The translations under genes were made by a program, and so were the position numbers. Of a stretch of 36,287 nucleotides of DNA, positions 13,188-32,776 are shown one piece after another. The notes under the pieces were generated by a model that was not told the DNA's origin, did not search any database, and saw only the letters and a list, made by a program, of their open reading frames with translations. Positions within the stretch are counted from its first letter, which is position 1. Each line of letters opens with the position of its first letter. The DNA comes from a virus: the IMG/VR virus record IMGVR_UViG_3300035698_024138, positions 1 to 36,287 of that record; one strand, 5' to 3'.

Positions 13188-13202
13188 TTTTTGGAACATA
13201 AA
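13188..13202 (+). promoter_or_regulatory. Repeated late-promoter-like motif, copy 1
   Basis: TTTTTGGAACATAAA directly after the beta stop codon and 48 bases (GG to ATG) upstream of the membrane protein gene at 13241. The sequence after it is free of G and C for about 15 bases. One of seven such copies. Confidence 0.6.
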
Positions 13203-13240
13203 ATATATAAAATTTAAAGATATGAAAGGAAATAAATATC

Positions 13241-14386
13241 ATGACCTTAATTAATTATTTCAAGTTATTAGAAATGGGTGCAAATGCATCCAATCCACAC
13301 ACAAACGAGATGTATTCTAGATTGGTATCAGAAGCTCCAAATATTGATAGTGCAGTTAAAGAATTATCAAGAGATTCAATGAAACTTAAAGCCCTTATAG
13401 ACAATATAGCAAATAATAATAAACCAGTTGTTAATAATACAAATCAACAAAACCCAGAATCCCTTCAGAGAATGTTATCAGAAGCAGATAATGGTCCCTC
13501 GATTGGAATAAAGCCAGGTCTTAATATTAACATGCCATCTGGTAGTTTTTTAAGTACAGTATTTGCATCTGTTTCAATAATTGCAGTCGCATATACATTT
13601 TTAAAGGATAGTTCAGAAGGACAAAAAGTAATTGCAAATTTGGGTAGAGATATTGGTAAAGTATATAGTGCAGCTTCTGACGTTGTAAATGATAATATTC
13701 AGGATATGAAAGAAGATCTACCAAATCCGTCAAATTTATGGAGATCTGTTAGTTCATTTTTCAGGGGCAAAAATCAAAATGTTTCATTATATTTAATATT
13801 AATAGCATTAGGTGTATCTTTAATAATTTTAACATTAAATGCATATTCAAATGAAACACAGAGTGGTCCTGGTGCAATTGCAGGTCCACCTCAATTATCA
13901 CCTTCAGCACCAATGAGTATAATGCCAGATATAAACTTTTTTAAGACAATAGAAGAAGCTGGGTTAAATAAAATTGAAAATGAAAATATTATAATGAAGT
14001 TTATAAGAGGAATTGATAGCGCCATTAGAACTGTTTTAAGAGGTTTTGGTACTAGATTATTAATATTGGTAAAAGATCCATTGGGGATAGCTGGTATTGC
14101 TTTATTACTTTTAGGTGTTTATGGAACTGTTAATTGGATTTTGGATAAAAGCGAATCCCCTGATGTTGAATATGATCAACATACACCACAGCCAGATGCA
14201 AATTGGACACCACCGGGAGCACCAACATCTACTCCTCCAACTGGTGGTAATGTAGGTAATTTATCAACGGTAATGGAAAATAGATTTTATTATAATGGAA
14301 TGCCACATGATGAATTAGTAATGAAATTAGAAAGTTTAAAATCTAAAATATCAAGAACATTAAAAAAGAAAAGAAGAAAATATTAA
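13241..14386 (+). CDS. Membrane protein with three predicted transmembrane segments
   Basis: 381 aa. Hydrophobic segments at about residues 103-121, 181-202 and 279-301 can span a membrane. They are separated by polar, Asn-rich (1-100) and Pro-rich stretches (206-230 and 315-340, for example TPPGAPTSTPPTGG). The tail ends in the very basic KKKRRKY. No catalytic motif is seen and I do not recognise the family. It is the first gene after copy 1 of the repeated motif, suggesting late expression, and its stop overlaps the ATG of the next gene by one base. It could be a virion protein acting at the host membrane during DNA entry, or a protein that remodels the infected-cell membrane. AAAGGA lies about 11 bases before the ATG. 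Confidence 0.75.
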   Translation: MTLINYFKLLEMGANASNPHTNEMYSRLVSEAPNIDSAVKELSRDSMKLKALIDNIANNNKPVVNNTNQQNPESLQRMLSEADNGPSIGIKPGLNINMPSGSFLSTVFASVSIIAVAYTFLKDSSEGQKVIANLGRDIGKVYSAASDVVNDNIQDMKEDLPNPSNLWRSVSSFFRGKNQNVSLYLILIALGVSLIILTLNAYSNETQSGPGAIAGPPQLSPSAPMSIMPDINFFKTIEEAGLNKIENENIIMKFIRGIDSAIRTVLRGFGTRLLILVKDPLGIAGIALLLLGVYGTVNWILDKSESPDVEYDQHTPQPDANWTPPGAPTSTPPTGGNVGNLSTVMENRFYYNGMPHDELVMKLESLKSKISRTLKKKRRKY

Positions 14387-14829
14387 TGGCTACAAATAAT
14401 AAAATAGAAAATCCAAAAATAGATGCACTATTGAAAGAGGGCGGTGAAAATAGAGCCGCCCTCTATTTTACTCTAAAAGATATAGATGAATTATTAGTTC
14501 TAGTTAAAGAATCATTTCCAAAGAATGCAAAATATGGAAAAGGTTATCAATATGCAGAACAGATAAAGGCATATGCAGAATTATATAGAACTGCATTACA
14601 ATACAGAAGTGAAATATCGAAATGTATAAAAAGCGAAATAGATATAATAATTAAAATAGATAGTGGTGGTGAGGATGTTGATAAAGTAGAAAATCTTAAA
14701 AAATTCAGTAAAGAATTATTAAGACAGGCAATGGATTTAAAAATACCAATAGATATTGGGAAAAATTATTACGATGAGGATAAAGAAATAAATGATGCAC
14801 ATAAATCTAAGAAGGGTATATTTAGTTAA
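14386..14829 (+). CDS. Small helical hypothetical protein
   Basis: 147 aa, highly charged and probably mostly alpha-helical (long Lys/Glu/Leu/Ile runs). No motif, signal peptide or membrane segment is visible and the family is not recognised. It has no good ribosome binding site of its own; the TAATG overlap with the preceding membrane-protein gene implies translational coupling, and so a shared function or stoichiometry. Codons 17-27 contain a striking GC-rich hairpin (14436-14464). Confidence 0.75.
   Translation: MATNNKIENPKIDALLKEGGENRAALYFTLKDIDELLVLVKESFPKNAKYGKGYQYAEQIKAYAELYRTALQYRSEISKCIKSEIDIIIKIDSGGEDVDKVENLKKFSKELLRQAMDLKIPIDIGKNYYDEDKEINDAHKSKKGIFS
14436..14464 (+). other. GC-rich hairpin inside a coding region
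   Basis: A perfect 9-bp stem, AGAGGGCGG (14436-14444) with CCGCCCTCT (14456-14464), and an 11-base loop, about 50 bases into the gene at 14386. It is followed by ATTTTA, not by a real T-run. It stands out against the very AT-rich surroundings. Confidence 0.6.
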
Positions 14830-14884
14830 TTTTTATTACTATAAAATTTTAAACATAAATAGATAAATAAATAAAGGAGAACAA

Positions 14885-16129
14885 ATGGCAAAAAAGAAGA
14901 GTGCTGCAGGAGCAGCCGCAGAAAAGAAAATTGTTAGTAATGTTCAGGCTGAATTAGATTTATTTCTTGGTACTAGTTATGGTATACAACAACCCAATAT
15001 AGAGGGAAAGGATACTATTCAAACTGGTATTGAACCAATTGATTTAATTTTGGGTGGTGGTTTTACTATTGGTGGTATAACTATAATAGTTGGTAGACCA
15101 TCTTCTGGTAAATCTGCATTGGCTGGTAATTTACTTGGGGAAGCTCAACGTAAATATGGAAAAGATCTATTATCTGTATATTTGGATAGTGAAGAGGGAA
15201 TGACATTGACAAGATTATATCAACTTGGTGTTAGAAGTCCTCGTATAAGACCATTTAACCAGATAAAGGTAGAAGATGTATTTAAAACTATTGATGGAAT
15301 ATGTCACTTTAAGGAATCAAAGAAAATTATAGACCAACCATCTATTGTTATTTGGGATTCTCTTGCAAGTACTATGACTGAAAAAGATGATAAAGCATTG
15401 GACCCAAAAGAAGTAATTGGATATAAGGCACGTCTATTGGCATTTGCAATTCCAAAATATCTTCCAAAATTAGCTAAATACAATATCTCACTTATAATTA
15501 TTAATCAGTTAAGAGATAGAGTTGATATGGGTATGTTTGCAAAACAAGGTGAATTAAAATACTTGAGAGATGGTAAAACACTTCCAGGTGGTAATGCTGT
15601 TAGGTTTGCCGCATCACATTTAATAGAAGTAAATGATGCTTCTCAATTAAAAGAGGAAGAATTTGGATTCAAGGGAAATAAAGTAACAATAACAACTATT
15701 AAAAACAGATTATTTCCTCCAAATATACCAATTAAAGTTGCATTTGATTATACACGAGGATTTGTTAATGTATGGTCTAAATTGATGATGTTAAAGGAAG
15801 AGGATTTAATCGTTGCAAGAGGTGGTTGGAGTTATATTCCAGGAGTTTATTATGATCCAGATAAATTGGATGATGATGGGAACGAAAAAGAAAAAGGGTT
15901 TAGATTAAAAGATACGGAAACATTATATGGATCAGATGAACCTTTTAGGATTGCATTCGATACAGTATTCAAAAGTTATGTTGATACATTAAATGCAAAA
16001 TATAAAATAGATATGGAAAAAGAAATTTCTGATGCCGAAATCAAATTAACAGTAAAACCTATAAAATCAGAAATAGAAGGTTTAGTAAAAGAAATTAATG
16101 ATGTTGATGATAAAATAGATAAGGAATAA
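14885..16129 (+). CDS. uvsX: RecA/UvsX-like recombinase
   Basis: 414 aa. The RecA-fold ATPase core is clear: TGIEPIDLILGGGFTIGG before the Walker A motif GRPSSGKS (70-77, catalytic K76), an acidic VYLDSEEG strand after it, Walker B IVIWDSLAS, and IIINQLRD corresponding to the RecA/UvsX segment leading to a DNA-binding loop. The N-terminal ~30 residues are Ala/Lys-rich and the C-terminus ends in an acidic tail. The length is close to T4 UvsX (about 390 aa). The expected role is ATP-dependent strand exchange in recombination-dependent replication and repair. AAAGGAG lies before the ATG. The upstream gap (14830-14884) lacks a full copy of the repeated motif, having only the weaker TTTTAAACATAAAT. 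A cellular-type RecA is less likely given the UvsX-like spacing. Confidence 0.88.
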   Translation: MAKKKSAAGAAAEKKIVSNVQAELDLFLGTSYGIQQPNIEGKDTIQTGIEPIDLILGGGFTIGGITIIVGRPSSGKSALAGNLLGEAQRKYGKDLLSVYLDSEEGMTLTRLYQLGVRSPRIRPFNQIKVEDVFKTIDGICHFKESKKIIDQPSIVIWDSLASTMTEKDDKALDPKEVIGYKARLLAFAIPKYLPKLAKYNISLIIINQLRDRVDMGMFAKQGELKYLRDGKTLPGGNAVRFAASHLIEVNDASQLKEEEFGFKGNKVTITTIKNRLFPPNIPIKVAFDYTRGFVNVWSKLMMLKEEDLIVARGGWSYIPGVYYDPDKLDDDGNEKEKGFRLKDTETLYGSDEPFRIAFDTVFKSYVDTLNAKYKIDMEKEISDAEIKLTVKPIKSEIEGLVKEINDVDDKIDKE

Positions 16130-16131
16130 TA

Positions 16132-16150
16132 TTTTTTTTTGGAACAAATA
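16132..16150 (+). promoter_or_regulatory. Repeated late-promoter-like motif, copy 2
   Basis: Nine T followed by GGAACAAATA, just after the recombinase stop codon. Its GG lies 130 bases upstream of the gene at 16271, the longest motif-to-start distance of the seven copies; the interval holds four hairpins. Confidence 0.55.
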
Positions 16151-16156
16151 ATATAG

Positions 16157-16236
16157 TAGACATCCATATGGAAGTCTAGAACCTGATATCAGCCAGGTGT
16201 TAAGAATATTCATTCTTTGAAACCTTACTGGGTAAG
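16157..16236 (+). promoter_or_regulatory. Structured leader: four consecutive hairpins
   Basis: Four non-overlapping inverted repeats in 80 bases. H1 is a 22-base inverted repeat at 16157-16178 (TAGAC/GTCTA around TCCATATGGA, one A-A mismatch). H2 is ACCTG/CAGGT (16181-16198). H3 is AAGAAT/ATTCTT with loop ATTC (16202-16217). H4 is CTTAC/GTAAG with loop TGG (16224-16236). They lie between motif copy 2 and the gene at 16271, so they would form in its 5' leader. No known riboswitch, ribozyme core or tRNA arrangement is recognised. Confidence 0.6.
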
Positions 16237-16270
16237 TTGATTAAAATAAAAACGAAAAAGGAGAGATCTA

Positions 16271-16789
16271 ATGAAAAAGATCACCGCTAAAACTATGGCT
16301 GTTAGGTTTTGGAAAGGTTTGGACCATGTTTTCTTTGAAAACAAAAACCCAAAATCTGTTATGACTGTTGAGGATTTTGAACTTTATAATTCTGATAAGG
16401 CTTCTCTTATCACAACTGCTATTGAATTACACATGAATTACAATAGTGTTATTGATGTTAGTTATCCAAAAAATATTTTTAAAGAATCAATCCGTATGGC
16501 TAATATTGCCAAAAAGGGTGCTATAAGTATTATAGAATCAAGAAAAGGTATTGATTTTATTAAGAAAATTAAAAGAAATAAAAAGCCAGTTGATGCAAAG
16601 AATAGAAGTATGAATGCTGTTAAATCAATAGCAGTAGATAATTTTCTTCTTGCAATGCCATTAATGGAATCTAAAAAGACTCCAGTGATTAAAGAAACAT
16701 TTTCAGTTGAACTTTTGACAGAGACATATAAGGTTATAAAAAATAATCTTTTACATATTGTTTCTAAATATGAAAGATTTAGAAAATAA
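16271..16789 (+). CDS. Hypothetical protein, probably highly expressed
   Basis: 172 aa, basic, no signal peptide, membrane segment or recognised motif. AAGGAGAG precedes the ATG. The first ~60 codons use more C-ending codons (ATC, ACC, GCT) than neighbouring genes, as the sheath gene also does, which together with the private motif copy 2 and the folded leader suggests strong expression. The residue range 78-110 is Lys/Ile-rich and probably helical. It may be an abundant virion or DNA-associated protein, but this rests on expression signals and charge only. The next gene follows after 29 bases. Confidence 0.72.
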   Translation: MKKITAKTMAVRFWKGLDHVFFENKNPKSVMTVEDFELYNSDKASLITTAIELHMNYNSVIDVSYPKNIFKESIRMANIAKKGAISIIESRKGIDFIKKIKRNKKPVDAKNRSMNAVKSIAVDNFLLAMPLMESKKTPVIKETFSVELLTETYKVIKNNLLHIVSKYERFRK

Positions 16790-16818
16790 TTTAAAATTAA
16801 AATAATTGGAGTTGACGT

Positions 16819-17547
16819 ATGCTCATAACAACATCTGGAATATGTAGCGATTCTGTCACTCCTGACATGTGTGCCAATATCACTAAATTGATGGAATATT
16901 TTTATGTAATGATTTATAAAGATCAAATTCTTGAAAAATCAAATGCAATGTATTCTGTCATTAGTGAGGGCAAGCATGGAAGAGTATGGAAACGTTTATT
17001 AGAAGCAATGCCCAATGGTGGGTATCAAACTGGTGGTTTAGCACCAACTAATATAATGATACAAATACCAAAATCAGGTCCAGATGGGAAAATTCAAAAT
17101 ATTGATTATTCTATATCTTCAAAAGTAGTTATTGATTTTAAATCCGGAACTGCAATAGGGGAGGCTTTAAGAAAAGATTTCTTAAGACCAGATAGCATAT
17201 TATCAGCTAAAAAAACTACTGATTATATAAAAAGTTTTTTTAGACGCCCGGTAAATAATAATGAAATATTGAATAATAAAGATAACTTGGTTATATTATC
17301 TAGTAGAGATATGGAAGAATTAAGTCAGAGTTTTTCCCAGAAAAATTCCATTCAAAAACTTTTTAACTTAGGGTGGCATGAAATAATAATTGATGATGCC
17401 ATGAATAGTGTTATAAATGTTTTTTCTCCATATGTTGGTGCTGGTAGATCTATCGTCACATATGCCGAAATGGATAGACTTTTGGGTATAAAAGATCCAA
17501 CAATGGGTCAAGTATCTAGTGCTACACGAAAATTATTTAATTATTAG
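16819..17547 (+). CDS. Hypothetical protein
   Basis: 242 aa. GGAG lies before the ATG. No signal peptide or membrane segment; mixed alpha/beta composition with a Gly/Pro-rich middle (PNGGYQTGGLAPTN, near residues 65-80). I do not recognise the family. It is the last gene before a strong terminator and probably cotranscribed with the gene at 16271. Position among virion genes makes a structural or assembly role possible, but nothing in the protein shows it. Confidence 0.72.
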   Translation: MLITTSGICSDSVTPDMCANITKLMEYFYVMIYKDQILEKSNAMYSVISEGKHGRVWKRLLEAMPNGGYQTGGLAPTNIMIQIPKSGPDGKIQNIDYSISSKVVIDFKSGTAIGEALRKDFLRPDSILSAKKTTDYIKSFFRRPVNNNEILNNKDNLVILSSRDMEELSQSFSQKNSIQKLFNLGWHEIIIDDAMNSVINVFSPYVGAGRSIVTYAEMDRLLGIKDPTMGQVSSATRKLFNY

Positions 17548-17570
17548 GGTAGTATAAAAATAATCCTTGA

Positions 17571-17602
17571 GCGGAGACGGTCTTTCCGTCTCCGCTTTTT
17601 TT
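17571..17602 (+). terminator. Strong rho-independent terminator
   Basis: Perfect 10-bp GC-rich stem GCGGAGACGG (17571-17580) with CCGTCTCCGC (17586-17595), loop TCTTT, then seven T. It is among the most GC-rich stretches of the window and ends the recombinase-region transcript. Confidence 0.95.
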
Positions 17603-17633
17603 AATGTTTATTATCAACGAAAGGAGTTGGAAT

Positions 17634-18269
17634 ATGCCTGAAATGGAATCAAGTATAACAATAATGGATTATAATAAAAAACAAGCACCAAAGCTTAAAT
17701 CTGATAATGGTAACCCAACACTTGGTACTAATGATCCTTATTATGATCTTAGTTTCAAAATAAAAGATTTTGATGACCCAAAAGAAGAAAAAAAATACAT
17801 AACATTTATAAAAAGAGCAATAAGAACAAGCCCAGAATATCATTTATGGAGAAAGTATATATTAGATGTTATTGGTGATAATTATTGTTTTATAACAAAT
17901 GAGCAACATGAAGATTGTACCATAGAAATACATCATCACCCATTCTCATTAGGAAAGATAGTTAGTGGTGTTGTTAATAAATCTTTAGAAAAAAATATAG
18001 AATTTACTTCATTTGATATAGTAAAGGAAGTAGTTGAATTACATTATTTAAATAAAATTGGATATGTTCCATTAATTACATCAATGCATGAAAGATTTCA
18101 TAGAGGGAATTTATCGATACCAATAGATTATGTGCATGGTAATTGGAAAGCTCTTCTTGATGATTATTCATGGGAAGATGAAGATAAGGAACTTATTAGC
18201 AAATATATAAGTGTTATTAATAGCAATATAGAATGGAAACGAAATAATTATCCTGGAAATAAAGATTGA
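17634..18269 (+). CDS. Hypothetical protein with His-rich HNH-like motif
   Basis: 211 aa from the ATG at 17634, preceded by AAAGGAG; an in-frame ATG at 17604 lies right at the end of the terminator and has no ribosome binding site. The central region has a CFITNEQHEDCTIEIHHHPFSL segment (HHH at 100-102; two Cys just before) and later MHERFHRG (H152, H156). The spacing of His pairs recalls HNH/His-Me nucleases, where the first His acts as base and later His/Asn bind metal. The match is partial, so nuclease activity is a suggestion only. It opens the baseplate block; no copy of the repeated motif precedes it and the gp53-like gene follows after 12 bases. Confidence 0.6.
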   Translation: MPEMESSITIMDYNKKQAPKLKSDNGNPTLGTNDPYYDLSFKIKDFDDPKEEKKYITFIKRAIRTSPEYHLWRKYILDVIGDNYCFITNEQHEDCTIEIHHHPFSLGKIVSGVVNKSLEKNIEFTSFDIVKEVVELHYLNKIGYVPLITSMHERFHRGNLSIPIDYVHGNWKALLDDYSWEDEDKELISKYISVINSNIEWKRNNYPGNKD

Positions 18270-18281
18270 AGGTGTAAATAA

Positions 18282-20192
18282 ATGGGGACTTTTAATATTA
18301 GATCAGAATCAAATGGTCCTGATATTGCATCAAATAATGAAGACAATATAAGAAATAGATATATAACATCTGATGGTATTGTATTTACATCACCAGACAT
18401 GAAAGTATTAGAAAATTATAGATACCAACTATTATATGGTGCATCTGAAATAAACATGGAACCAAGATATCATATGAGACCTGATTATTTATCATATGAT
18501 AAATATGGAACTGTAATGTATAGATATATACTTTTATATATAAATGATTGTTTTTCAAGAGAAGAATTTACAAAAAGGAAAATTATAGTTCCAAACCCAT
18601 CAACATTATATAAAATATTTATAAATAAGGATTTTTTGTTATCAAATGATATAGGTGAAGTTGATATCAGTTATTCTAGTAATATTAATTCCACATATAT
18701 ACAAAAAAATACAAATACTCTTACAAATATCACACCAACTACTTTAAATATTGTAAATAATCCCACTGGATTATTACGAAATGATATAATGGTTGCATGG
18801 CAAAGTTATGAAATAAATAGTTTAGGATTTCCATCATGGAAGGTATATTTCAAAACTTTTGATTATTTAGGAAATTATAAAGTTTTAGACCAAGATTTAA
18901 ATTCTGATATAACTGATAACAACTCTAGAGAAAATTTAAATATATCACAGCTTAAAAAAAATACATTTGTAGGCGTTTGGGAGTCCGTTAATGGTGATGG
19001 ACATCAACGTGGATTAGAATCAAGGGCATTTAGTATTATGGGTAGTAAAAGTTCATTAGAGAGCATATATGACGTTAATTCAGATATTAAATATGATCAA
19101 AAAAGACCGAGTATTGATAGTATATTTAATGATAAATATATGATAGTTTGGGAAGATTCTTCAACTCAAAATCAATATATAATGGGAAAAGTTTATGATG
19201 TTAACGGTAATATAATTAAGACAGATTTCAGAATATCATCGAATATAATATATGATGAATTAAAACCAGTAGTTAAATTATTCCCAGATGGTTATTCGGT
19301 TGTGGCTTGGGAAAAAAACTTTATACCATCATACACATCAAACATAACTGGGATCCCACCATCAGATGATTCTAAATTTCAAAATGATATAATAATGACA
19401 ATTATGGATCAGAATAATGTTATAACAATTCCGGAAAATATAGTTAATTCAAATAGAGAATATTTTCAGAATAATGTTGAAATTTTGGTTATTGATAATA
19501 ACAAATTTGTTGTTGTATGGCAATCTTACACAGATGATGCAACAAAATTTGATATTTATATGAAGATATATAATAAAAATGGATCTATTATTATGCAGGA
19601 TACCATTGTAAATAATTCTAAAATGGAAAGTGATCAAGTAAATCCAAAAATTTCATTATTGGATAATGGTAAATTTATTATTGTATGGGAAAGTAGAAAA
19701 ATTGAATATAATGCATATTCAAATATTTATGGTAAAATATTCAATTCAAATGGAATTGAAATTACAAAAGAATTTCTAATAACATATAATGATGTTGATG
19801 TATCAAATCCAAGCGTCACTGGGTTAGCTGACGGAACATTTACCGTATCTTGGAGTTCATATGTTAATGATGATTCTTTATATTCAACCGCTTCTGGTTA
19901 TGTTAATAGTTTAACATTGGATGAGATAATATTAAATGATTCAATTACAGATGAAAAAATATCAATATCTTTGATTGATGATGTAAGTGGTGAAAGATAC
20001 ACATTATTACAAAATATAAAATATGGATCATTTATTGATAATGGTCAATTGATTGGAAATTTGGATATAAAATTTGATATTAAAATGAAAAAAATGATGT
20101 ATTCACCAAATATATCAGTAATATTTGATACAATTAGAATAAATAGTAAATTAATGGGCAATCAAACAAATCCATTAATTCTATCAATATAA
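18282..20192 (+). CDS. gp53-like baseplate wedge domain fused to a seven-bladed beta-propeller
   Basis: 636 aa. Residues about 45-115 (PRYHMRPDYLSYDKYGT, then MYRYILLYIND and an IIVPNP segment) match the pattern of the T4 gp53 wedge family: RPD..A..YG...LW..IL..N followed by an I.IP segment. After it, seven repeats of about 57 residues each carry a hydrophobic strand ending in W plus acidic/polar residues (VAWQS, VGVWES, IVWEDS, VAWEKN, VVWQSY, IVWESR, VSWSSY), with Trp at 173, 233, 290, 343, 413, 469 and 524. This is the pattern of a seven-bladed propeller. The last ~90 residues form a different beta-rich end. gp53 closes wedges around the hub in T4; a propeller would add a surface for protein or glycan binding. 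The gp53 assignment is moderate; the repeats are plain. Confidence 0.72.
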   Translation: MGTFNIRSESNGPDIASNNEDNIRNRYITSDGIVFTSPDMKVLENYRYQLLYGASEINMEPRYHMRPDYLSYDKYGTVMYRYILLYINDCFSREEFTKRKIIVPNPSTLYKIFINKDFLLSNDIGEVDISYSSNINSTYIQKNTNTLTNITPTTLNIVNNPTGLLRNDIMVAWQSYEINSLGFPSWKVYFKTFDYLGNYKVLDQDLNSDITDNNSRENLNISQLKKNTFVGVWESVNGDGHQRGLESRAFSIMGSKSSLESIYDVNSDIKYDQKRPSIDSIFNDKYMIVWEDSSTQNQYIMGKVYDVNGNIIKTDFRISSNIIYDELKPVVKLFPDGYSVVAWEKNFIPSYTSNITGIPPSDDSKFQNDIIMTIMDQNNVITIPENIVNSNREYFQNNVEILVIDNNKFVVVWQSYTDDATKFDIYMKIYNKNGSIIMQDTIVNNSKMESDQVNPKISLLDNGKFIIVWESRKIEYNAYSNIYGKIFNSNGIEITKEFLITYNDVDVSNPSVTGLADGTFTVSWSSYVNDDSLYSTASGYVNSLTLDEIILNDSITDEKISISLIDDVSGERYTLLQNIKYGSFIDNGQLIGNLDIKFDIKMKKMMYSPNISVIFDTIRINSKLMGNQTNPLILSI

Positions 20193-20217
20193 TTATAAAA
20201 ATTCTTGGAGGAATCGT

Positions 20218-20526
20218 ATGAACATAAATAAATATTTCGAGGCATCACAAACACCAGAATCAAGAAAAAAAGAAGCTAGAGTTGCAGAAAAAAAACGGGA
20301 CAAAGAAAAAATAAAGACAAAACAACTTGATAATAAAAAGTCTGAAATTGATAATAAAATACAAATAAAAAAAGAAGAATTATCATCATTGGAGAAAAAA
20401 TTTAGAGATGGTCTTGAAGATCGTAGGAATGATTTAAGAGATTTTGAAAAAAAACAAAAAGAAAAAATTAAAAATAAAAGAAAAGAAATAACAGAGTTTT
20501 TAGATAAAAGGAATAAATTGAACTAG
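20218..20526 (+). CDS. Small coiled-coil protein
   Basis: 102 aa, about half Lys/Glu/Arg/Asp, with heptad-like spacing of Leu/Ile through residues 15-100, so one long coiled coil is expected. TTGGAGGA precedes the ATG. It sits between the gp53-like wedge protein and an unknown baseplate-region gene. A scaffold or chaperone for tail assembly is possible; no family is recognised. Confidence 0.72.
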   Translation: MNINKYFEASQTPESRKKEARVAEKKRDKEKIKTKQLDNKKSEIDNKIQIKKEELSSLEKKFRDGLEDRRNDLRDFEKKQKEKIKNKRKEITEFLDKRNKLN

Positions 20527-20537
20527 AGGGATTTAAA

Positions 20538-21431: not shown

Positions 21432-21456
21432 ATAAAAATAAAAAGGTGGAGATAAA

Positions 21457-22467: not shown

Positions 22468-22469
22468 TT

Positions 22470-22784: not shown

Positions 22785-22800
22785 TTTTTTGGAACATAAA
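22785..22800 (+). promoter_or_regulatory. Repeated late-promoter-like motif, copy 3
   Basis: TTTTTTGGAACATAAA immediately after the PAAR stop codon, 36 bases (GG to ATG) upstream of the membrane protein gene at 22827. An A/T-only tract follows. Confidence 0.6.
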
Positions 22801-22826
22801 TTAAATAAATAAAAGGTAGAAATATT

Positions 22827-24630: not shown

Positions 24631-24651
24631 ATAAATGTTAAGGATATATAA

Positions 24652-25332
24652 ATGGAAAGTAAAAATGTAGTTTTGGATTTAGTTCATTGGTTTAATAAAT
24701 ATACCAAAGACAATTTAGCAATAACTCCAGATAATAATTATTTTTTTGTTAATATGAACTTACCATTTAATCCAAATTCATTATTCAGACTTATATTTGA
24801 TGATACTTTTAAATCAATAACAAGCCCTCCTAGCTATGAATATGGTATAGAGTTAATAAATAAACAAAATTTGGCTAGTAGTGAACTTAGAGATAGAACA
24901 TTAACATATCCAGAAATATCATTATATAAAGTTCATTATGATTTTTTTGGGTTTGAAGTTGGTACAATATGTGGTGGGGTATTAGTAGATCTTGCTAATT
25001 GTTTAGATATAACATTAGAAGAAGAAGCATTATTTGATAAATTATTAGAATATAGAGAAACTGGTACAACCAACCTTTCTATTATAATAATAAATGATTC
25101 ACCACAAACACAAATAACATATAATGATTTGGTATCAGAAAGATCAAAAGCAATTTATATTTATTTAGATTTATATGTAAATGATAATTTAAATCAAGAT
25201 GCATATTCATTAGACCTAGAAGATTGTTGTTTTGAGTTATGTTTATATATTTGGTTATTAAATGAAATATATAATTACTATAAAAATAATATATCACAAC
25301 TCACACCTGAAGATCCAGGGTGTATGATATAG
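24652..25332 (+). CDS. Hypothetical protein of the baseplate cluster
   Basis: 226 aa, acidic, without signal peptide or clear membrane segment. It is rich in Tyr, Leu and Asn, with a DLEDCCFELCLYIW stretch near residue 185-200 holding three Cys. AAGGAT precedes the ATG. It lies between the membrane-protein pair and the large wedge-like protein and is probably cotranscribed with both. A structural role fits the position; the family is not recognised. Confidence 0.7.
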   Translation: MESKNVVLDLVHWFNKYTKDNLAITPDNNYFFVNMNLPFNPNSLFRLIFDDTFKSITSPPSYEYGIELINKQNLASSELRDRTLTYPEISLYKVHYDFFGFEVGTICGGVLVDLANCLDITLEEEALFDKLLEYRETGTTNLSIIIINDSPQTQITYNDLVSERSKAIYIYLDLYVNDNLNQDAYSLDLEDCCFELCLYIWLLNEIYNYYKNNISQLTPEDPGCMI

Positions 25333-25353
25333 ACATTGCATTGGAGATAAATT

Positions 25354-27396
25354 GTGGGTATAGAATTTAATTTTTCCGAATTTTGGGAATTAATCGAATA
25401 TTTAAAAGATGGAAGAAAATATAGTGAGACCATTGCGCCAAAACCGGCTCCAGAGTTTTTAAATTCAAAATTAGAATCTACATTATTAGATACTCAAGAT
25501 ATATCTTTAAATTTTTTTAATAATATAATAGAACAATCTATATATTATAGTACTGATTGGTTAAGATTTAAAAACTTATTATTAGATTGGTATACTTCTT
25601 ATTCATTTTTTATGAATGTTCATAAAAATATTTCAAATCCAGAATATATAAATAAAGACTTAATGCTTGAATCTTTTGGATATCCATATTCAAGTTATCA
25701 TAATGATGATGTTAAGAAAAGTTTATTGTTAAATTATGTAAGTTTACTTAAAGGAAAAGGAACCCCCGAGACTTTAAGAGATATGTTATTTTTTACTACA
25801 ATACAAAACTTATATTTTTTTGAGTATTGGTTGGTGCAAGATTATACAAAAATTGGAACTGATTCTTTAAATTTTGTTCCTGAAATAGTATTTGCACCAG
25901 CAGATGGAAGTACAATTAATATAGATAGTTTATCAAAAAAATACACCGATTTATTTGATAAATCCACAAATACATGGTTTGATCCACATTGGTTTTATGA
26001 GGCGCAGGATGTGTTAAATTTAAATAGCACGAGTGATATAACATTACCATCAATGACCCCATATTATGGGTTATCATTTTTTGTGGATTGGCAAGCATCT
26101 CAAAAGAATATAACAATAAAAATAAATAGAATGTTAACTGATCAATATAATGAATATATAAAAACTGGATTAATTAATAATTTAGTTAGAACCATATATA
26201 TTGCGGAAGTTGATGCATTTGTATCAATATTGGAATTAATGCTTACAATTAATACATTGTATTCTAAAATTAATAATACAGAAGCTAGAATTAATATTGA
26301 TGAACGTCACTATGAATATAATAAAATTGAAAATAACTTAAGAGTAGATTTACCACCAAATTCAATTTTAATTGATGAATTTAATAATTCATTTAGAATA
26401 CCAGAAGCAGAAATAGACCCAATTACTGGGGAAGTTTTAAAAGATGCAAGACAGGTTCGTGATGAGTTATTAAAAGAAATTAAAGATAATTACACAATGT
26501 CTAGTAATTTTCCATTATTTGATAATATAACAGAATATGAAAATTTACTCAGAGAAATTAACCCAGACATGTATACAAATATTTTATTAACTATAGAAAA
26601 TAATGCAGAAGAAGATACTTTATTAGAATTACTTGAAGCATTAGATTTCTATGCACAGGGATTTAATCTTGGGGCTTCAAATTTTAGATATATGATTTTT
26701 GAACAATTTTCTAATACAAATAAAAAGAAATTATTTGATATTATTAATTTTTTCAAACCTTACCATGTTAGATTATTAGATTATGGTATTAGATATATTA
26801 TTAAAGATTTGCCAGGTGATGCAATGAGAGTTTCAGATAAAGTAAATAATGAAATAATCCAACAATTTAATGACTGGTTTTATTGGATGCCTTATAGTGA
26901 TGAGAATTTTGAAGGAAGATGGGATCAAAGTGTTGGGGGTGTATATTTACCAAAAAATTATTATAAAGATGAAATTAATACAACAATAAATACAGATATA
27001 AATGAAATAATTGGTTTTAATTTTAATAGTATATCAGATTTACCTGATTATAGCCCATTTATATCATTAGAAGATTATCTACTTAATAAAATTAGAAAGA
27101 CTGATTTACAACTACTAGACATAGTTGAATCTAATATACATACGGATCTTGGTTATGGTTTTAATTCATCCAGTCCATCATCTAAAATTAGAACTGATTC
27201 AGTTCCATTAAATATTGAATCTGAGATAGAAGTTAATTTGCAATTTAATGATTGGGATTATTGGAGACCTTATATAGACAATACATCTGGAAGAGAAACA
27301 GATAGACCAAATTTAGATACATCACCACCAAACATGAAATTAAGAGAATATCTTAAAGATCGTATTGAGATAACTGAAATAATTTTTGGAACATAA
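25354..27396 (+). CDS. Probable baseplate wedge protein (gpI/gp7-like) with C-terminal repeats
   Basis: 680 aa with a GTG start: GGAG lies seven bases upstream and no in-frame ATG occurs for over 80 codons. Residues ~105-150 contain LLKGKGTPETLRDMLFF, resembling the GTPxA.. segment of P2 gpI-type tail proteins, which relate to the C-terminal part of T4 gp7. Near residue 470 is FFKPYHVRLLDYGI, a pattern shared by several phage baseplate proteins. The C-terminus has two related units, QFNDWFYWMPY (F505) and QFNDWDYWRPY (F631), about 126 residues apart, suggesting a duplicated domain. It is late-type in context. Its stop codon lies inside copy 4 of the repeated motif, so the last codons (F-G-T-stop) are part of that signal. 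Wedge assignment is moderate. Confidence 0.65.
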   Translation: MGIEFNFSEFWELIEYLKDGRKYSETIAPKPAPEFLNSKLESTLLDTQDISLNFFNNIIEQSIYYSTDWLRFKNLLLDWYTSYSFFMNVHKNISNPEYINKDLMLESFGYPYSSYHNDDVKKSLLLNYVSLLKGKGTPETLRDMLFFTTIQNLYFFEYWLVQDYTKIGTDSLNFVPEIVFAPADGSTINIDSLSKKYTDLFDKSTNTWFDPHWFYEAQDVLNLNSTSDITLPSMTPYYGLSFFVDWQASQKNITIKINRMLTDQYNEYIKTGLINNLVRTIYIAEVDAFVSILELMLTINTLYSKINNTEARINIDERHYEYNKIENNLRVDLPPNSILIDEFNNSFRIPEAEIDPITGEVLKDARQVRDELLKEIKDNYTMSSNFPLFDNITEYENLLREINPDMYTNILLTIENNAEEDTLLELLEALDFYAQGFNLGASNFRYMIFEQFSNTNKKKLFDIINFFKPYHVRLLDYGIRYIIKDLPGDAMRVSDKVNNEIIQQFNDWFYWMPYSDENFEGRWDQSVGGVYLPKNYYKDEINTTINTDINEIIGFNFNSISDLPDYSPFISLEDYLLNKIRKTDLQLLDIVESNIHTDLGYGFNSSSPSSKIRTDSVPLNIESEIEVNLQFNDWDYWRPYIDNTSGRETDRPNLDTSPPNMKLREYLKDRIEITEIIFGT

Positions 27397-27397
27397 A
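27383..27397 (+). promoter_or_regulatory. Repeated late-promoter-like motif, copy 4, overlapping a stop codon
   Basis: TTTTTGGAACATAAA. The TAA at 27394-27396 is also the stop of the wedge-like gene, and the GG lies 35 bases before the ATG at 27423. Confidence 0.6.
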
Positions 27398-27422
27398 ATA
27401 TTAAATATAAAGGAGCCAGGAG

Positions 27423-28085
27423 ATGAATGAAACAAATATAACAATCCTTGACAATCAAAATAAAAATTTAAAAGATAAAACATCGGTAGATATGATAGTT
27501 GACGGTAATAATAAATATGGAATACCTAGAGGTGGTCTTGTAAAAATATTTGAGGAAATTAAAGGTAAAAAAAGAAAACTTATAAATAAATCTAATCTAA
27601 TTGTATATAGTGGGCGAAAAATATTGGCCCAACGTGCTATAAATATGGATAGGGTTTCAGGGTCTACTGAAAAGGATTACTATATTTCATGGTTTAGTAT
27701 GGGAACTGGTGGGACTGATGGTATTAATGTTTTACAACCAATACCACCAGCAGCAACTGACACATCTTTAACTTCAGAAATAATTATAAATGGAACAGAT
27801 GCCAATAATATAGATGGTGGAAGAAAACACCCAATAGATGGTTTTACGTTTGAAGCTGATGCAGAAAATTTAAATGAACCAATTATAATAAAATCAACAA
27901 TCACTATCGATTATGGTGATGCTAATGGTAATAATATAAGTGAAGCTGGGTTATGGATGTCAGATTCAGATAACACAAGCATCGTAAATGTATCAACTCT
28001 TACAATGTGGGCTAGAGTTACATTTAGTACATTACAAAAAGACAGTTCTAGAAAATTTATATTTGATTGGTATCTTTACTTTTAA
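27423..28085 (+). CDS. Probable virion structural protein
   Basis: 220 aa. AAGGAGCCAGGAG precedes the ATG. The C-terminal half ends ISEAGLWMSD...LTMWARVTFSTLQKD...FIFDWYLYF, a pattern I associate with small phage tail or baseplate proteins (EAGL followed by a MfaR.tF strand and a terminal aromatic strand). The N-terminal half is polar with a short Lys-rich segment (KGKKRKLINK). The protein is predicted mostly beta. It has its own copy of the repeated motif and ends 100 bases before the sheath gene, with motif copy 5 between. Baseplate or fibre-attachment role is inference. Confidence 0.65.
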   Translation: MNETNITILDNQNKNLKDKTSVDMIVDGNNKYGIPRGGLVKIFEEIKGKKRKLINKSNLIVYSGRKILAQRAINMDRVSGSTEKDYYISWFSMGTGGTDGINVLQPIPPAATDTSLTSEIIINGTDANNIDGGRKHPIDGFTFEADAENLNEPIIIKSTITIDYGDANGNNISEAGLWMSDSDNTSIVNVSTLTMWARVTFSTLQKDSSRKFIFDWYLYF

Positions 28086-28104
28086 AAATTAAAGACCTAA
28101 CATA

Positions 28105-28121
28105 TTTTTTTGGAACAAAAA
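28105..28121 (+). promoter_or_regulatory. Repeated late-promoter-like motif, copy 5, upstream of the tail sheath
   Basis: Seven T followed by GGAACAAAAA; the GG lies 73 bases before the sheath ATG. The rest of the leader (to 28184) is almost pure A/T and holds an A/T-only inverted repeat (TTAATTA/TAATTAA) before AAAGGAGGA. It probably drives sheath and tail tube together. Confidence 0.6.
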
Positions 28122-28184
28122 TAGTAAAAGAATAGTTAATAAGTTAATTAATTTTAATAATTAAATAAAAGGAGGAATAGCATT

Positions 28185-30857
28185 ATGGCTAGTGCTACCG
28201 GTCTACCAATTTCCCCTGGAGTATACTCTAAGATCACAGATCTTAGTACTTTTTTACAGGCGGTCCCAGGAACAACAGGATTTATTGCGTTTGTTTCTGA
28301 AAAGGGAGAGGATAATAAAATTCTTTTCCAAAGTAGTTACACTGAATTGATTCGTGAATTTGGTGAACCAAAAGTAAAAAAATATACCAAGTCCTTTGGA
28401 CAGGGTCTTTTAGTTGCAGAACAATTTCTTAAAGTTTCTGCATCTGCTTACGTTATGAGGGTTCTTCCTCCTACCGCAACATATGCGAATCTTTTCTTCG
28501 GTTTAGATATTACTACTCCTGGTGCCGAAAAATTATTTTTCGAATCCAGACCAAATATGTATACTATAGCTGACATTGAAACTCAGATGGAAGATGCAGC
28601 TAATCTTAATACAAATGGAACTTTGAGAGGTGTTGATGGGTTAGACTCAACTAAGACAACAATAACCCCATTATTTATATTCTATGCAAAGGCTAGAGGT
28701 GTTTGGTATGATAAATTATCAATTAATATAACACCATCATCTAATCTTTCAGATGTGTATGTTCTTGATGTTTATCAATCACAAGAATCAGATGGTCAAG
28801 ATGTTATAATTGAAAGTAGAAATATATCATTTGATGCCGATATTTTAGATGATTCTGGCGAAACATATTACATTGATCATGTTACTGAAAGATATTGCGA
28901 AAATGTTAGATGTTTTTCTAATGAGGATAATGTAAAGAATTTCGTTACCAATTGGTCCACCGCTGTAATAAGTGATGGTGTTAGACTTTCTGATTATTCG
29001 GGTGGATTGAATGATGGTGATACCATCTTAGTTGCATCTACTGATAAATCTGGCAATCCAGTAACTGCTACTGGTAACCTTACTGGTTATGAAGACTATA
29101 TTGCCAAATGGAATGCAGCTGGAACATCATGGTCATTTGTAACACCAGAGCTTGGAATGATGATCAAGTTTGGAGAAATTTCAGTTTTAGGTGTGATATC
29201 ACAGGTTGCACAATTCCCAACTACACCTAGTGTTGGTGATTCGTATCTTATTGCAGATGAAACAGTTGTGACAACGCCTTTAGTGGTATTACCAACTGCA
29301 TTTGTTGGTCATAGTAATGAGATAGCAATATTTGATGCATCTCCAACAACTCCAGCCACTGGTACTATTACATTTAATAATATTTCTGATGCTACAATTA
29401 CACCGAACCCAGCAGATACTATAACAATAGGTGACCAAACATACACATGTGTGGTTGCAGGTGCTACTGGTAATCAATTTAATGTTGGAACCACAGCAAT
29501 CGATCAAGCTACTAATTTAGTTGCTGCAATTAATGGTGCAACAATTACATCTGGTACTTATACTGGAACAATTACAGCTGATAATGCTAGTGGGACTGTA
29601 GCCACAGTTACAATTACCACTGATGTTTTAGGTAATGAAGGTAATACAATTGGGTTATCACAAACATATAATACTAATGTTGGTGGAACTGCTCCAATTC
29701 TTTCAGGTGCTTTATTTACTGGTGGTACTAGTGACGGTTGGGATTTCATAACTCCAGTTACTGGTCTTAGACTTAATAGATCAGATTTAACCATACAACC
29801 AGAATATATATTTAATGGTGGTCGTTGGTTAATCGAATCTGATACCAATCCACAAAGAACTTGGACATATGATGGTTCTAACTGGCTTGTTGATGATGTT
29901 ATTAGTTCAGTATTCACACAGCAGACACCAATTGATACCATTATAAAAAGATTTTCTAATGGTAGTGATGGTACTTTATTTGATGTTAATGGGAATATTG
30001 TTTCAAGTGTAGCTACCCAATTATTAACACAAGCATATGCAGGTGATATTGATCCATCAGTTCTTGATGATGAATGGCTTTGGTATTCATTAGTATTTGA
30101 TGCTGGTTATCCAAAACCTGTTAAAGATTCAATTAATGAATTGGCATCAGTTCTTAGAAGAGATTGTGTTGCTATTATTGATAATGGTGATAATGTATCT
30201 GTAGCTGATGCACTTATTGCAAGACAAGGTAACTTAACAACAGACCCAACTTATTCATATAATACTTTCTATACAGCAATTTATGAAAACTATAGTAAAA
30301 TATATGAATCATATTCCGGTACTGATATTTGGGTATCTCCTTGTTTCCATATGGCAAGAATAATTCCTCTTAATGATCAAACTACTTCAATATGGGCAGC
30401 ACCAGCTGGATATCTTAGAGCATCTGTACCAGAAATACAAGAATTAAGATATAACCCTAGATTGTCTCAGAGAGATCAATTATACCTTGCTCAACTTAAT
30501 CCAATAGTTAGGTTCAGAGAGGGATATGTTGTATGGGGTCAATTGACATCACAAACAAGACCAAGCGCACTTCAGGATCTAAATGTTGTAAGACTTGTTC
30601 TTTATATAAAAAGAGCACTTGAACAATATTGTAGAAACTTTATTTTTGATTATAATAATAGTGATACACATGCAAGAATTTCTCAAGGCATAAATTCATT
30701 TCTTTTAGTTTTCTCTGAAAGAGGTGGTTTAACATCTTATTCAGTTGATGTTGGTGCTACAGAATATGAATATAAAACCAAAACTTGTCATGTTAACATT
30801 TCCCTTGAACCAGTTAAAGTTCTTGAAAAAATAGAACTTAACTTCTTCATCAGCTAA
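28185..30857 (+). CDS. Tail sheath protein (gp18-like) with inserted domain
   Basis: 890 aa, longer than T4 gp18 (about 659). The N-terminus (LPISPGVYSKITDLSTF..PGTTGFIAFVSEKG) and the C-terminal ~220 residues (PAGYLRASVPEIQELRYNPRLSQ, VVWGQLTSQ, YIKRALEQYCRNF, ending in EPVKVLEKIELNFFIS) are typical contractile sheath sequence. Residues ~380-515 form a Thr/Gly/Ala-rich insertion including DTITIGDQTYTCVVAG and LVAAINGATITSGTY, a beta-rich module seen in other phage structural proteins and probably exposed on the sheath surface. The excellent AAAGGAGGA ribosome site and C-richer codons at the start suit a major virion protein. Subunits form the sheath around the tube and contract on infection. 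The tail tube gene follows 17 bases later. Confidence 0.92.
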   Translation: MASATGLPISPGVYSKITDLSTFLQAVPGTTGFIAFVSEKGEDNKILFQSSYTELIREFGEPKVKKYTKSFGQGLLVAEQFLKVSASAYVMRVLPPTATYANLFFGLDITTPGAEKLFFESRPNMYTIADIETQMEDAANLNTNGTLRGVDGLDSTKTTITPLFIFYAKARGVWYDKLSINITPSSNLSDVYVLDVYQSQESDGQDVIIESRNISFDADILDDSGETYYIDHVTERYCENVRCFSNEDNVKNFVTNWSTAVISDGVRLSDYSGGLNDGDTILVASTDKSGNPVTATGNLTGYEDYIAKWNAAGTSWSFVTPELGMMIKFGEISVLGVISQVAQFPTTPSVGDSYLIADETVVTTPLVVLPTAFVGHSNEIAIFDASPTTPATGTITFNNISDATITPNPADTITIGDQTYTCVVAGATGNQFNVGTTAIDQATNLVAAINGATITSGTYTGTITADNASGTVATVTITTDVLGNEGNTIGLSQTYNTNVGGTAPILSGALFTGGTSDGWDFITPVTGLRLNRSDLTIQPEYIFNGGRWLIESDTNPQRTWTYDGSNWLVDDVISSVFTQQTPIDTIIKRFSNGSDGTLFDVNGNIVSSVATQLLTQAYAGDIDPSVLDDEWLWYSLVFDAGYPKPVKDSINELASVLRRDCVAIIDNGDNVSVADALIARQGNLTTDPTYSYNTFYTAIYENYSKIYESYSGTDIWVSPCFHMARIIPLNDQTTSIWAAPAGYLRASVPEIQELRYNPRLSQRDQLYLAQLNPIVRFREGYVVWGQLTSQTRPSALQDLNVVRLVLYIKRALEQYCRNFIFDYNNSDTHARISQGINSFLLVFSERGGLTSYSVDVGATEYEYKTKTCHVNISLEPVKVLEKIELNFFIS

Positions 30858-30874
30858 AAAGGAGGTAAATAGAA

Positions 30875-31762
30875 ATGCCAATATCAGTACAAGATAAATT
30901 AGGCAATTATAAAACAGCCGAAAAAAATACATTTAGTAGAAAATTTGGACATGCCATCCATCCAGTAGATCCATATGTTACTGGTTACTTTTATGTGTTT
31001 TTTGAATTACCAACACTTGTTTGGGATGTGATTAATGCCAAATTTAAAGGGGCTGCTGCCTCTAGTCTTTTATATAAAGACGATCCAATTGAAAATGAAA
31101 AAGCAGCAACACCTCCAAACTTGGAATCATTACTTACCGCAACATGTACTGGTGTAACAACCGTACCAGGTGGAACTCTTAATAAAGTAGAGTTGACCGG
31201 TCAAGGTGGGGTTAAATACTCAGTTGCTGGTCATGTTGATTATACAAGTGAATTTGGTTGTAAATTTACAGAACTAACAGGATTACCAATTTTTAAGATT
31301 TTTTCTGCATGGTCAAATATGATAAGACAACATAATATTGGAACAAGTATGCTTGGTGATAATTACCAATTCGTAGGTGGTAAGTATACAAAAGCAAATT
31401 ATTCTGGTAGAGCTTATTATTGTACCGTAAAGCCAGATGGTCATACTCCTGAATTTTATGCTTGTTATGAAGGATTATTTCCTATGAAAGATCCACAAGA
31501 TTTATTTCAATCTGATGTAACTTCAGTAGATAAAGTTGAAATAGATATGACATTTAATGTGGATTATATATGGCAAGAACAATGGGTATATGATGCATGT
31601 CTTAAGAAGATAGGTTCGACAATGGCATCAAGAGATGAGATTATTAATTATGGTGGTAGTAATTATACAAGTAAAACTACTTCAAATGCTTCTACATTAG
31701 CGGGTGCTGGTACTCTTACCTCTATTCCAAGCTCCGATCAATTGGCGAGTCTTCTTAATTAA
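30875..31762 (+). CDS. Tail tube protein (gp19-like)
   Basis: 295 aa. AAGGAGGT precedes the ATG. It directly follows the sheath gene as in T4-like phages. The core has the tube-protein pattern of beta strands: PVDPYVTGYFYVFFELP near residue 30, LLTATCTGV, GLPIFKIFSAWSNMI and, near the C-terminus, CYEGLFPMKDPQDLF...VEIDMTFNVDYIWQE, which recalls the gp19 family. The last ~35 residues are Ser/Thr/Gly-rich and flexible. It should polymerise into the hexameric inner tube through which DNA passes. A terminator follows. The gene at 31871 encodes a clear paralogue, so one of the two could instead be a tube-initiator protein; this one, coupled to sheath and with better translation signals, is the likelier major tube subunit. 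Confidence 0.82.
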   Translation: MPISVQDKLGNYKTAEKNTFSRKFGHAIHPVDPYVTGYFYVFFELPTLVWDVINAKFKGAAASSLLYKDDPIENEKAATPPNLESLLTATCTGVTTVPGGTLNKVELTGQGGVKYSVAGHVDYTSEFGCKFTELTGLPIFKIFSAWSNMIRQHNIGTSMLGDNYQFVGGKYTKANYSGRAYYCTVKPDGHTPEFYACYEGLFPMKDPQDLFQSDVTSVDKVEIDMTFNVDYIWQEQWVYDACLKKIGSTMASRDEIINYGGSNYTSKTTSNASTLAGAGTLTSIPSSDQLASLLN

Positions 31763-31777
31763 AAACAAATAATTACC

Positions 31778-31812
31778 AAATCCTTCTCTATTTTTTAGAG
31801 AAGGATTTTTTT
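31778..31812 (+). terminator. Rho-independent terminator after the tail tube gene
   Basis: A perfect 13-bp stem AAATCCTTCTCTA (31778-31790) with TAGAGAAGGATTT (31796-31808), five-T loop, and a T-run to 31812. It separates the sheath/tube transcript from the paralogue gene. Confidence 0.93.
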
Positions 31813-31820
31813 ATGGTATA

Positions 31821-31836
31821 TTTTTTGGAACATATA
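31821..31836 (+). promoter_or_regulatory. Repeated late-promoter-like motif, copy 6
   Basis: TTTTTTGGAACATATA, starting nine bases after the terminator T-run. Its GG lies 44 bases before the ATG at 31871. Placement right after a terminator supports a promoter role over a 3'-end signal. Confidence 0.62.
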
Positions 31837-31870
31837 AATATATAATAGAAAATTTGGAGGTAAATGGAAA

Positions 31871-32731
31871 ATGTCAATAGAAACTCAAAATTATTTAGGA
31901 AATTTTGAAACAGCATCGCGAAATACATTTAATAGAAAATTTGGAGCAGCTATACATCCAGTAGATCCTTATATATCTGGATATTTTTATGTGTTTTTTG
32001 ATCTTCCATTTGGTGTATATGATATGTTGGAATCATTTACTGGACCATACAAAAATACAAAATATAACGATGATACGGTTGAACAACATACGTCAGAAGG
32101 AAAAGATTTTATAAAAATGAGCTCAATTGTTGGATTATTAACAGCAACATGTGTTGGTGTTACATCAATTCCAAGTGGAACGAATAATAAAGTAGAATAT
32201 GTATGTCAAGGTGGTTTAAAATATTCAGAAAATGGTTTTAATGAATATACATCTGAAATAAATTTAAGATTTATTGAAATAACCGGAATACCAGTATTCA
32301 AAATATTATCAGCATGGTCAAGATTATTAAAACATAAATCAATTGGTAATGTCATATCAACATCAGAAAGTGGTGAATCTTCATCATCAACTGGTAATAG
32401 TGATATTGGAAAAGAATATTTTGTGAATAAATATGATAAATCAAAATATTCTGGAAATATTTATTATTGTACAGTTAAACCAGATGGCCATACTATAGAA
32501 TATTATGCTTGTTATGAGGGTATTTTTCCTTTAAGAGATCCACATGATCAATTTTCTACTGATTTAACTAGTATAGATAAAAGAGAAATAGATATGACAT
32601 TTAATGTAGATTATATGTGGCAAGAACCATGGGTATATAAAGAATGTCTTGAAAGAGTCAAGTCAGTAATGGAAGTTAGTAGAAAAAGTATTTATGATTA
32701 TACGGGGGATATTACGTTATCAAAAAAATAA
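31871..32731 (+). CDS. Second tail-tube-type protein (gp19 paralogue; possibly a gp54-like tube initiator)
   Basis: 286 aa. GGAGGT lies about ten bases before the ATG. It aligns over its whole length with the protein at 30875: both begin with a LGN(Y/F)xTAxxNTFxRKFG segment and share HPVDPY, SGYFYVFF, LLTATCxGV, YTSE, FKIxSAWS, YYCTVKPDGHT, YYACYEG and IDMTFNVDYxWQE. It differs by a Ser/Gly-rich insertion near residues 170-185 and by lacking the flexible C-terminal tail. Codon use is more AT-rich than in the first copy. In T4, gp19 (tube) and gp54 (the baseplate ring that starts the tube) are related, so this may be the ring-forming partner. A terminator plus a private motif copy would allow a different expression level. 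Confidence 0.8.
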   Translation: MSIETQNYLGNFETASRNTFNRKFGAAIHPVDPYISGYFYVFFDLPFGVYDMLESFTGPYKNTKYNDDTVEQHTSEGKDFIKMSSIVGLLTATCVGVTSIPSGTNNKVEYVCQGGLKYSENGFNEYTSEINLRFIEITGIPVFKILSAWSRLLKHKSIGNVISTSESGESSSSTGNSDIGKEYFVNKYDKSKYSGNIYYCTVKPDGHTIEYYACYEGIFPLRDPHDQFSTDLTSIDKREIDMTFNVDYMWQEPWVYKECLERVKSVMEVSRKSIYDYTGDITLSKK

Positions 32732-32734
32732 ATA

Positions 32735-32751
32735 TTTTTATGGAACATAAA
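32735..32751 (+). promoter_or_regulatory. Repeated late-promoter-like motif, copy 7
   Basis: TTTTTATGGAACATAAA, three bases after the stop of the tube paralogue and 35 bases (GG to ATG) before the gene at 32777. The T-run is interrupted by one A, the only copy where this is so. Confidence 0.55.
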
Positions 32752-32776
32752 AAAATAAACAAAAGGATATGTTGTG

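Follow-up and report, generated by a model that had tools for sequence, protein, structure and literature searches.

Bacillus phage AR9 has two multisubunit RNA polymerases (RNAPs), and its late promoters follow the consensus AACA-N6-T(A/G), in which the last base is the start site (PMC5312081). The AACA element is read in the template strand by gp226, the sigma-like subunit of the AR9 non-virion enzyme (PMC9209446), four of whose five subunits are continuously expressed while the fifth is early (PMC5312081). Phage phiKZ follows a two-RNAP strategy with a sigma-like extra subunit, gp68, in its nvRNAP (PMC7598289). Moreover, phages carrying beta and beta' were collected from IMG/VR under the name of multimeric RNAP-encoding Caudovirales (mReC), in an account that does not mention promoters or sigma (PMC7481178).

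The window analyzed here is the whole of a 36,287-base viral record (IMG/VR IMGVR_UViG_3300035698_024138), probably a fragment. The first-pass annotation had listed seven copies of a T-run motif as candidate promoters of the phage RNAP, and we recovered all seven in place, the T-run starts being exact and each run continuing into GGAACA(T/A)A.

13188..13207, + strand: copy 1, TTTTTGGAACATAAAATATA, T5 run, exact T5GGAACA, before gene 13241
16132..16155, + strand: copy 2, T9GGAACAAATAATATA, exact T5GGAACA, before gene 16271
22785..22805, + strand: copy 3, T6GGAACATAAATTAAA, exact T5GGAACA, before gene 22827
27383..27402, + strand: copy 4, T5GGAACATAAAATATT, exact T5GGAACA, before gene 27423
28105..28126, + strand: copy 5, T7GGAACAAAAATAGTA, exact T5GGAACA, before the tail sheath gene 28185
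31821..31841, + strand: copy 6, T6GGAACATATAAATAT, exact T5GGAACA, before gene 31871
32735..32756, + strand: copy 7 (imperfect), TTTTTATGGAACATAAAAAAATA, one mismatch to T5GGAACA (at 32735, T5, then A, T), before gene 32774/32777

All seven lie on the plus strand, as claimed earlier, and in or at the edge of gaps before start codons, each start codon lying 34 to 129 nt from its GAACA core (47, 129, 35, 34, 72, 43, and 34 nt for copies 1 to 7). Copy 4 overlaps the final four codons of the preceding gene, 25354-27396 (stop 27394-27396), in keeping with the edge position given in the first-pass annotation, copy 6 directly follows a terminator-like hairpin, and the gene after copy 7 may start at ATG 32777 instead of GTG 32774. 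The sheath and structural targets named by the first-pass annotation are supported by PHROGs, which back the sheath label of gene 28185 and the virion-structural labels of genes 27423 and 31871, in agreement with a late class. The exact form TTTTTGGAACA occurs six times on the plus strand and never on the minus strand, compared to a mean of 0.13 (maximum, 1) in dinucleotide-preserving shuffles of the window. When one mismatch is allowed, the count of seven is reached by 4 of 100 shuffles, and the signal is thus carried by the exact form. GGAACA as such is found 18 times on the plus strand and 3 times on the minus strand, and 6 of the 18 touch non-coding DNA, which makes up 3% of the window (binomial p, 2e-5).

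Relatives in IMG/VR were reached with a conserved beta' piece (alignment A4, DFDGD region), which matched 80 loci, and with an independent motif search, TTTTTGGAACATAAA-N3..30-AAAGG, which returned eight loci. Contig G010, in which three motif copies each stand just before a start codon, was reached by both searches. Single-protein and three-sequence beta searches and a sheath search (viral contigs) yielded no relatives, a 480-aa alignment search of viral contigs yielded G001 only, and a beta alignment search of genome contigs yielded nothing. The AT-rich contig G017, found by the motif only, was set aside, showing no relation to the clade and no motif enrichment.

G001 is collinear with the window from gene 3694 to gene 27423, with 26 to 58% protein identity (beta', 48%; gp226-like protein, 58%). 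A T-run AGAACA, continuing with AAATATAATA or AATTAAAATA, is present in four orthologous gaps, before 13241 (ATTTAGAACAAAATATAATA), 16271 (T8AGAACAAAATATAATA), 22827 (T6AGAACAAAATATAATA), and 27423 (T6AGAACAAATTAAAATA), i.e., at the places of copies 1 to 4. G001 stops before the sheath gene that follows copy 5; the window gaps without the motif are mostly without it in G001 too. Hence, the position of the motif was kept while the flanking proteins diverged by about half, and the conserved core is GAACA. The leader between copy 2 and gene 16271 (window 16147-16270, ~115 nt) has inverted repeats, with no Rfam match in 16130-16270 even at an E value of 5, and the leader at the orthologous place in G001 is shorter.

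Two possible additional copies lie in the window.

14847..14862, + strand: possible weak copy TTTTAAACATAAATAG, gap sequence before the UvsX-like gene 14885
4879..4893, + strand: possible internal copy TTGGAACATAAAACG, inside the specificity-subunit gene, ~255 nt before beta'

G001 has AATAAGAACAAATTTTAAA at the place orthologous to the weak copy, and coding constraint alone could account for the internal match. The RNAP operon had been described as lacking the motif, which is right for intergenic full-motif matches, but the description overlooks AGAACAAC ~31 nt before the likely start 3694 and TTGGAACATAAAA at 4879, within the specificity-subunit gene.

Enrichment was measured in the upstream gaps of a panel of 14 related contigs (1.3 Mb, excluding the window), where GAACAA is the most enriched of the 4,096 hexamers. 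RGAACAWA is present there in 82 sense and 4 antisense copies, and this genome-wide test of strand and placement, done on relatives of 26 to 277 kb, speaks against copies lying mainly inside genes or on both strands at random, the outcome that would have refuted the candidate promoters. AGAACA shows a sense/antisense ratio of 78/7, whereas 27 of the 28 other permutations of its letters stay at or below 22 sense copies, with hardly any strand bias; only AAGAAC, which overlaps the motif, is higher (33/8). Of 31 AGAACAAA sites in the 193-kb contig G002, 20 fall in intergenic DNA (8% of the genome), and GGAACA, AGAACA, or GAACAA ranks first or near first among hexamers in the window, G001, G002, G009, G024, and G021. 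No enrichment of RGAACAWA or GAACAA was seen in AR9, LPJP1, YerA41, or JD-Fnp1. T5GGAACA does not occur as a set in AR9, LPJP1, phiR1-37, BpSp, PALS_2, JD-Fnp1, YerA41, and Carin-5; the exact window form is therefore lineage-specific. The T-run GG form belongs to the window phage and G010, and the clade-wide core is (A/G)GAACA(A/T)A. In GC-rich loci (L020, L023-L025, L028, and others), beta'-matching open reading frames (ORFs) of ~2,050 to 2,450 aa, perhaps fused RNAP chains, were noted; GAACA is not enriched in these loci, in which no gp226-like gene was seen.

The shape of the site was studied on copies aligned on the motif (98, then 122), with the same motif inside genes as the control. On the upstream side of both sets, T is favored at -6 to -2 and A or G at -1, and GAACA is followed by A (84%), A, two W, and then an A-rich block. 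In the 122 copies, A reaches 0.68, 0.80, and 0.79 at +11 to +13, where the intragenic controls are flat. Between +5 and +13 there is hardly any G; it reappears at +14, from which position the information in the 98 copies is at background. The best conserved A of the block stands 8 nt beyond the final A of AACA. AR9 AACA sites passed through the same pipeline gave T at 0.68 and then A at 0.62 at +11/+12, a register shared with the clade. The clade resembles AR9 in the AACA core, found on the non-template strand upstream of late and structural genes, and in the second conserved block 7 to 8 nt after AACA. The AR9 parallel drawn in the first-pass annotation is backed by the same -11 to -8 register, by a gp226 homologue beside the RNAP genes, and by the published AR9 consensus. 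Unlike AR9, the clade has an extra conserved (A/G)G before AACA, T-richness upstream, and the A-rich +11 to +13 block instead of T(A/G) at -1/+1. Of the seven window copies, four have T at +12 and four have the A at +11 or +13, which limits the precision of the predicted start sites to a base or two: near 13206 for copy 1, near 16154 for copy 2 (leader, ~115 nt), and near 22804 for copy 3.

The RNAP genes of the window lie upstream of copy 1, in the following arrangement.

3564..3606, + strand: candidate early promoter of the specificity-subunit/RNAP operon, TTGATT-17-TATAAT into TATAATATATATAGCTAAA
3694..5112, + strand: predicted gp226-like promoter-specificity subunit (profile and fold similarity to AR9 gp226)
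5136..8960, + strand: unsplit RNAP beta', set A, virion-type lineage (Pfam RNA_pol_Rpb1; tree)
7440-8183, + strand: probable in-frame intein in beta', ~248 aa (from sequence only)
8960..13186, + strand: unsplit RNAP beta, set A (Pfam RNA_pol_Rpb2; PDB beta subunits, E to 6e-65)

The first ORF of this operon was called from TTG 3640 and probably starts at ATG 3694. Comparison by hhalign of the clade profile with the AR9 gp226 family gave 79% (E value, 1.5e-5; 354 columns), whereas 24 control families of the clade gave at most 1% each against the gp226 profile; only family profiles gave this signal, a single-sequence hhalign against gp226 being not significant (1.7%). The AlphaFold2 model (pLDDT, 76) had AR9 gp226 (7s01_A) as its best Foldseek match in the PDB (probability, 1.00; E value, 1.8e-6; 467 columns), and this was the only confident one, the next, unrelated match having an E value of 0.72. 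The global TM score of the model against gp226 is low (0.36 to 0.38), which may be explained by a differing placement of the two domains. By family profiles and by the modeled fold, the product of ORF 3694-5112 is remotely homologous to AR9 gp226. Homologues of ~480 aa were found in 13 further clade loci as well as in G021, G025, and G014, the gene being present in 17 clade contigs; it was not found in the motif-bearing G024 and G010, both fragments. In the window and in G001, it directly precedes the set A beta' gene; in most relatives, the two are separated by about one gene at most. In G001, the gp226-like gene has an in-frame TGA (L015 7086-7088) where the window codon is glycine, with the frame open beyond, which may be an error, a recent break, or a recoded stop.

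AR9-type promoters carry deoxyuridine at -11 and -10 of the template strand, a base that reads as T in sequence records, and the AR9 requirement for uracil is due to a valine of gp226, V206. The position of V206, the uracil-gating residue of AR9, is V in all seven AR9-group proteins aligned, whereas it is F in the window protein and Y, F, A, or N in relatives, according to a profile alignment that is approximate. The AR9 glycosylase inhibitor was not found in the clade contigs, including the 277-kb G021. Given that neither T(A/G) nor the uracil gate was recovered, we do not class the motif as a deoxyuridine-dependent AR9 promoter.

Two beta'/beta pairs are encoded by each of the contigs G021 (L202-L215), G002 (L113-L122), G014 (L216-L221), and G026 (L123-L127), and none is split as in AR9 or phiKZ. 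In the beta' tree, set A groups with the AR9 virion RNAP and set B with the AR9 non-virion RNAP (split support, 98/98); the two sets apparently represent these lineages, on a tree with long AR9 branches that is good evidence but not final. The motif is found 0 to 2 genes upstream of set A operons in 12 of 18 distinct loci and of set B operons in 1 of 14, and a thirteenth set A locus, in G001, has an intragenic match only. Such a distribution would follow from late expression of set A and early expression of set B, and it mirrors the expression of the AR9 non-virion subunits. Set B is not present in the window. In G010, a variant site TTTTTGGAATATAAAAATATA with AATA for AACA (L030, ~5390-5443) stands before a gene upstream of set B. 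The window and G001 are organized otherwise, the gp226-like gene standing directly before set A and behind the candidate early promoter. At the candidate early promoter, an AT-rich element is conserved between the window and G001, and sigma-70-like matches are no more frequent than in shuffles, so that it is the conservation in G001 that supports the candidate, which may be a host or a virion-RNAP promoter. The AR9-like early motif ATATATAG/ATATATATTAT is not enriched in the clade. The probable beta' intein interrupts the trigger-loop motif (MRTFH^TGG), begins with CILPDMS, and ends with MWTHN before T, with no match in Pfam or NCBIfam; a different intein, starting with CYDKETE, appears to follow GDKL in the G001 beta.

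The clade shares with AR9 a gp226-family subunit and two phage multisubunit RNAPs but differs in its unsplit subunits and in the replacement of V206. With phiKZ, it has in common two RNAPs and a sigma-like extra subunit, gp68 being likened by its description, whereas phiKZ has late promoters with TATG at the start site and split subunits. Like the mReC, these are uncultivated tailed phages with beta and beta' in IMG/VR, beta and beta' being unsplit in the clade; the mReC markers MCP of VOG11186 and TerL of VOG01069 do not lie in the window. The best beta matches among isolates, those of Yersinia phage YerA41 and Cobetia phage Carin-5, show the same RNAP order, beta'-beta, with a small gene upstream; unlike in the clade, no gp226-like gene was found in YerA41 or Carin-5, nor in JD-Fnp1, and YerA41 and JD-Fnp1 also lack the motif enrichment.

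Altogether, we consider it very probable that the motif is a late promoter of the phage, functioning as in AR9 and read by a phage RNAP with a gp226-like subunit. In this model, a T-rich stretch, (A/G)GAACA(A/T)A, and an A-rich block whose top A is probably the start site would constitute one promoter class, at which, by homology with AR9, a phage multisubunit RNAP carrying the gp226-like subunit would open the DNA and read AACA at ~-11 to -8, presumably on the same strand as in AR9. Its targets would be the late and structural genes. The core would most likely be the second, non-virion-type beta'/beta pair (set B) encoded by the long relatives, while the window pair would probably be a virion-type enzyme and itself a late product. 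We give a probability of roughly 0.8 to this explanation as a whole, i.e., promoter class, gp226-like subunit, second non-virion-type core, and late targets. Counting against it are the A-rich block in place of the T(A/G) of AR9, the T at +12 in four window copies, the long AR9 branches of the tree, and the two motif-bearing fragments, G024 and G010, in which no gp226-like gene was found.

The same promoters could instead be read by the window's own virion-type set A RNAP with the adjacent gp226-like subunit, the enzyme making its own late transcripts. The absence of set B from the window and the linkage of the gp226-like gene to set A, directly before beta' in two contigs and within about one gene in most others, would favor set A as its core, against our preferred reading. 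Nevertheless, the tree places set A beside the virion RNAP of AR9, whereas gp226 is a subunit of the non-virion one (PMC9209446), and the motif, frequent at set A operons, is rare at those of set B. A virion-type enzyme whose own operon is, in relatives, often preceded by the motif makes the second RNAP the more likely reader, and we regard a set A reader as rather unlikely, while giving it more weight than any other alternative. Thus, of the earlier proposal of a promoter of the phage RNAP, the promoter part is supported, and the enzyme seen in the window is less likely to be the reader than the second RNAP.

Many ECF promoters have GGAAC as the core of their -35 element. The motif could therefore be a host sigma-factor promoter, in which either GGAAC would be an ECF-like -35 or TTGGAACA a degenerate sigma-70 -35, but neither a -10/-35 pair nor a second box 15 to 25 nt downstream is present in the 98 aligned copies, which counts against both forms, and occurrence of the motif follows the phage subunit across diverse contigs; a host promoter thus appears very improbable. 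We think just as little of a role in the RNA, for instance in enhancing translation or as a processing site: most aligned copies lie 35 to 58 nt before a start codon, as such an element might, yet the distance extends from ~23 to 184 nt without tracking the Shine-Dalgarno site (129 nt for the copy at 16132), and the conserved block stays at a constant distance from AACA but not from the start codon. Chance, or the composition bias of an AT-rich, purine-skewed genome, could produce the one-mismatch matches, which taken alone are marginal in the window, but it is refuted by the excess of the exact form over shuffles, by the permuted-letter and non-clade controls, and by the orthologous positions in G001.

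Beyond the reading of AACA by a phage RNAP, the chances seem to us evenly divided that this uncultivated large-phage clade combines two complete unsplit RNAPs with a gp226-family reader of an AACA promoter devoid of a uracil gate. If so, AACA reading and the gp226 subunit would either predate subunit splitting and deoxyuridine DNA or be independent of both, and we would see in this clade a living image of the ancestor, with two RNAPs, of the phiKZ/AR9-type phages. AACA recognition would then be separated from deoxyuridine and from split subunits, and the unsplit polymerases, possibly easier to express, could serve to test promoter reading by a sigma-like phage subunit. Comparative genomics alone thus points, for a whole uncultivated clade, to a probable promoter, to the genes that it serves, and to the enzyme likely to read it.

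On the minus strand, the window has a single clear gene (3009-3557), which has no match in Pfam and faces a bidirectional terminator at 2981-3003. The gene at 17604-18269 is a homologue of phrog_12252, a family that among isolates is limited to AR9/PBS1, BpSp, phiR1-37, LPJP1, and Staphylococcus jumbo phages, where it occupies two places per genome.
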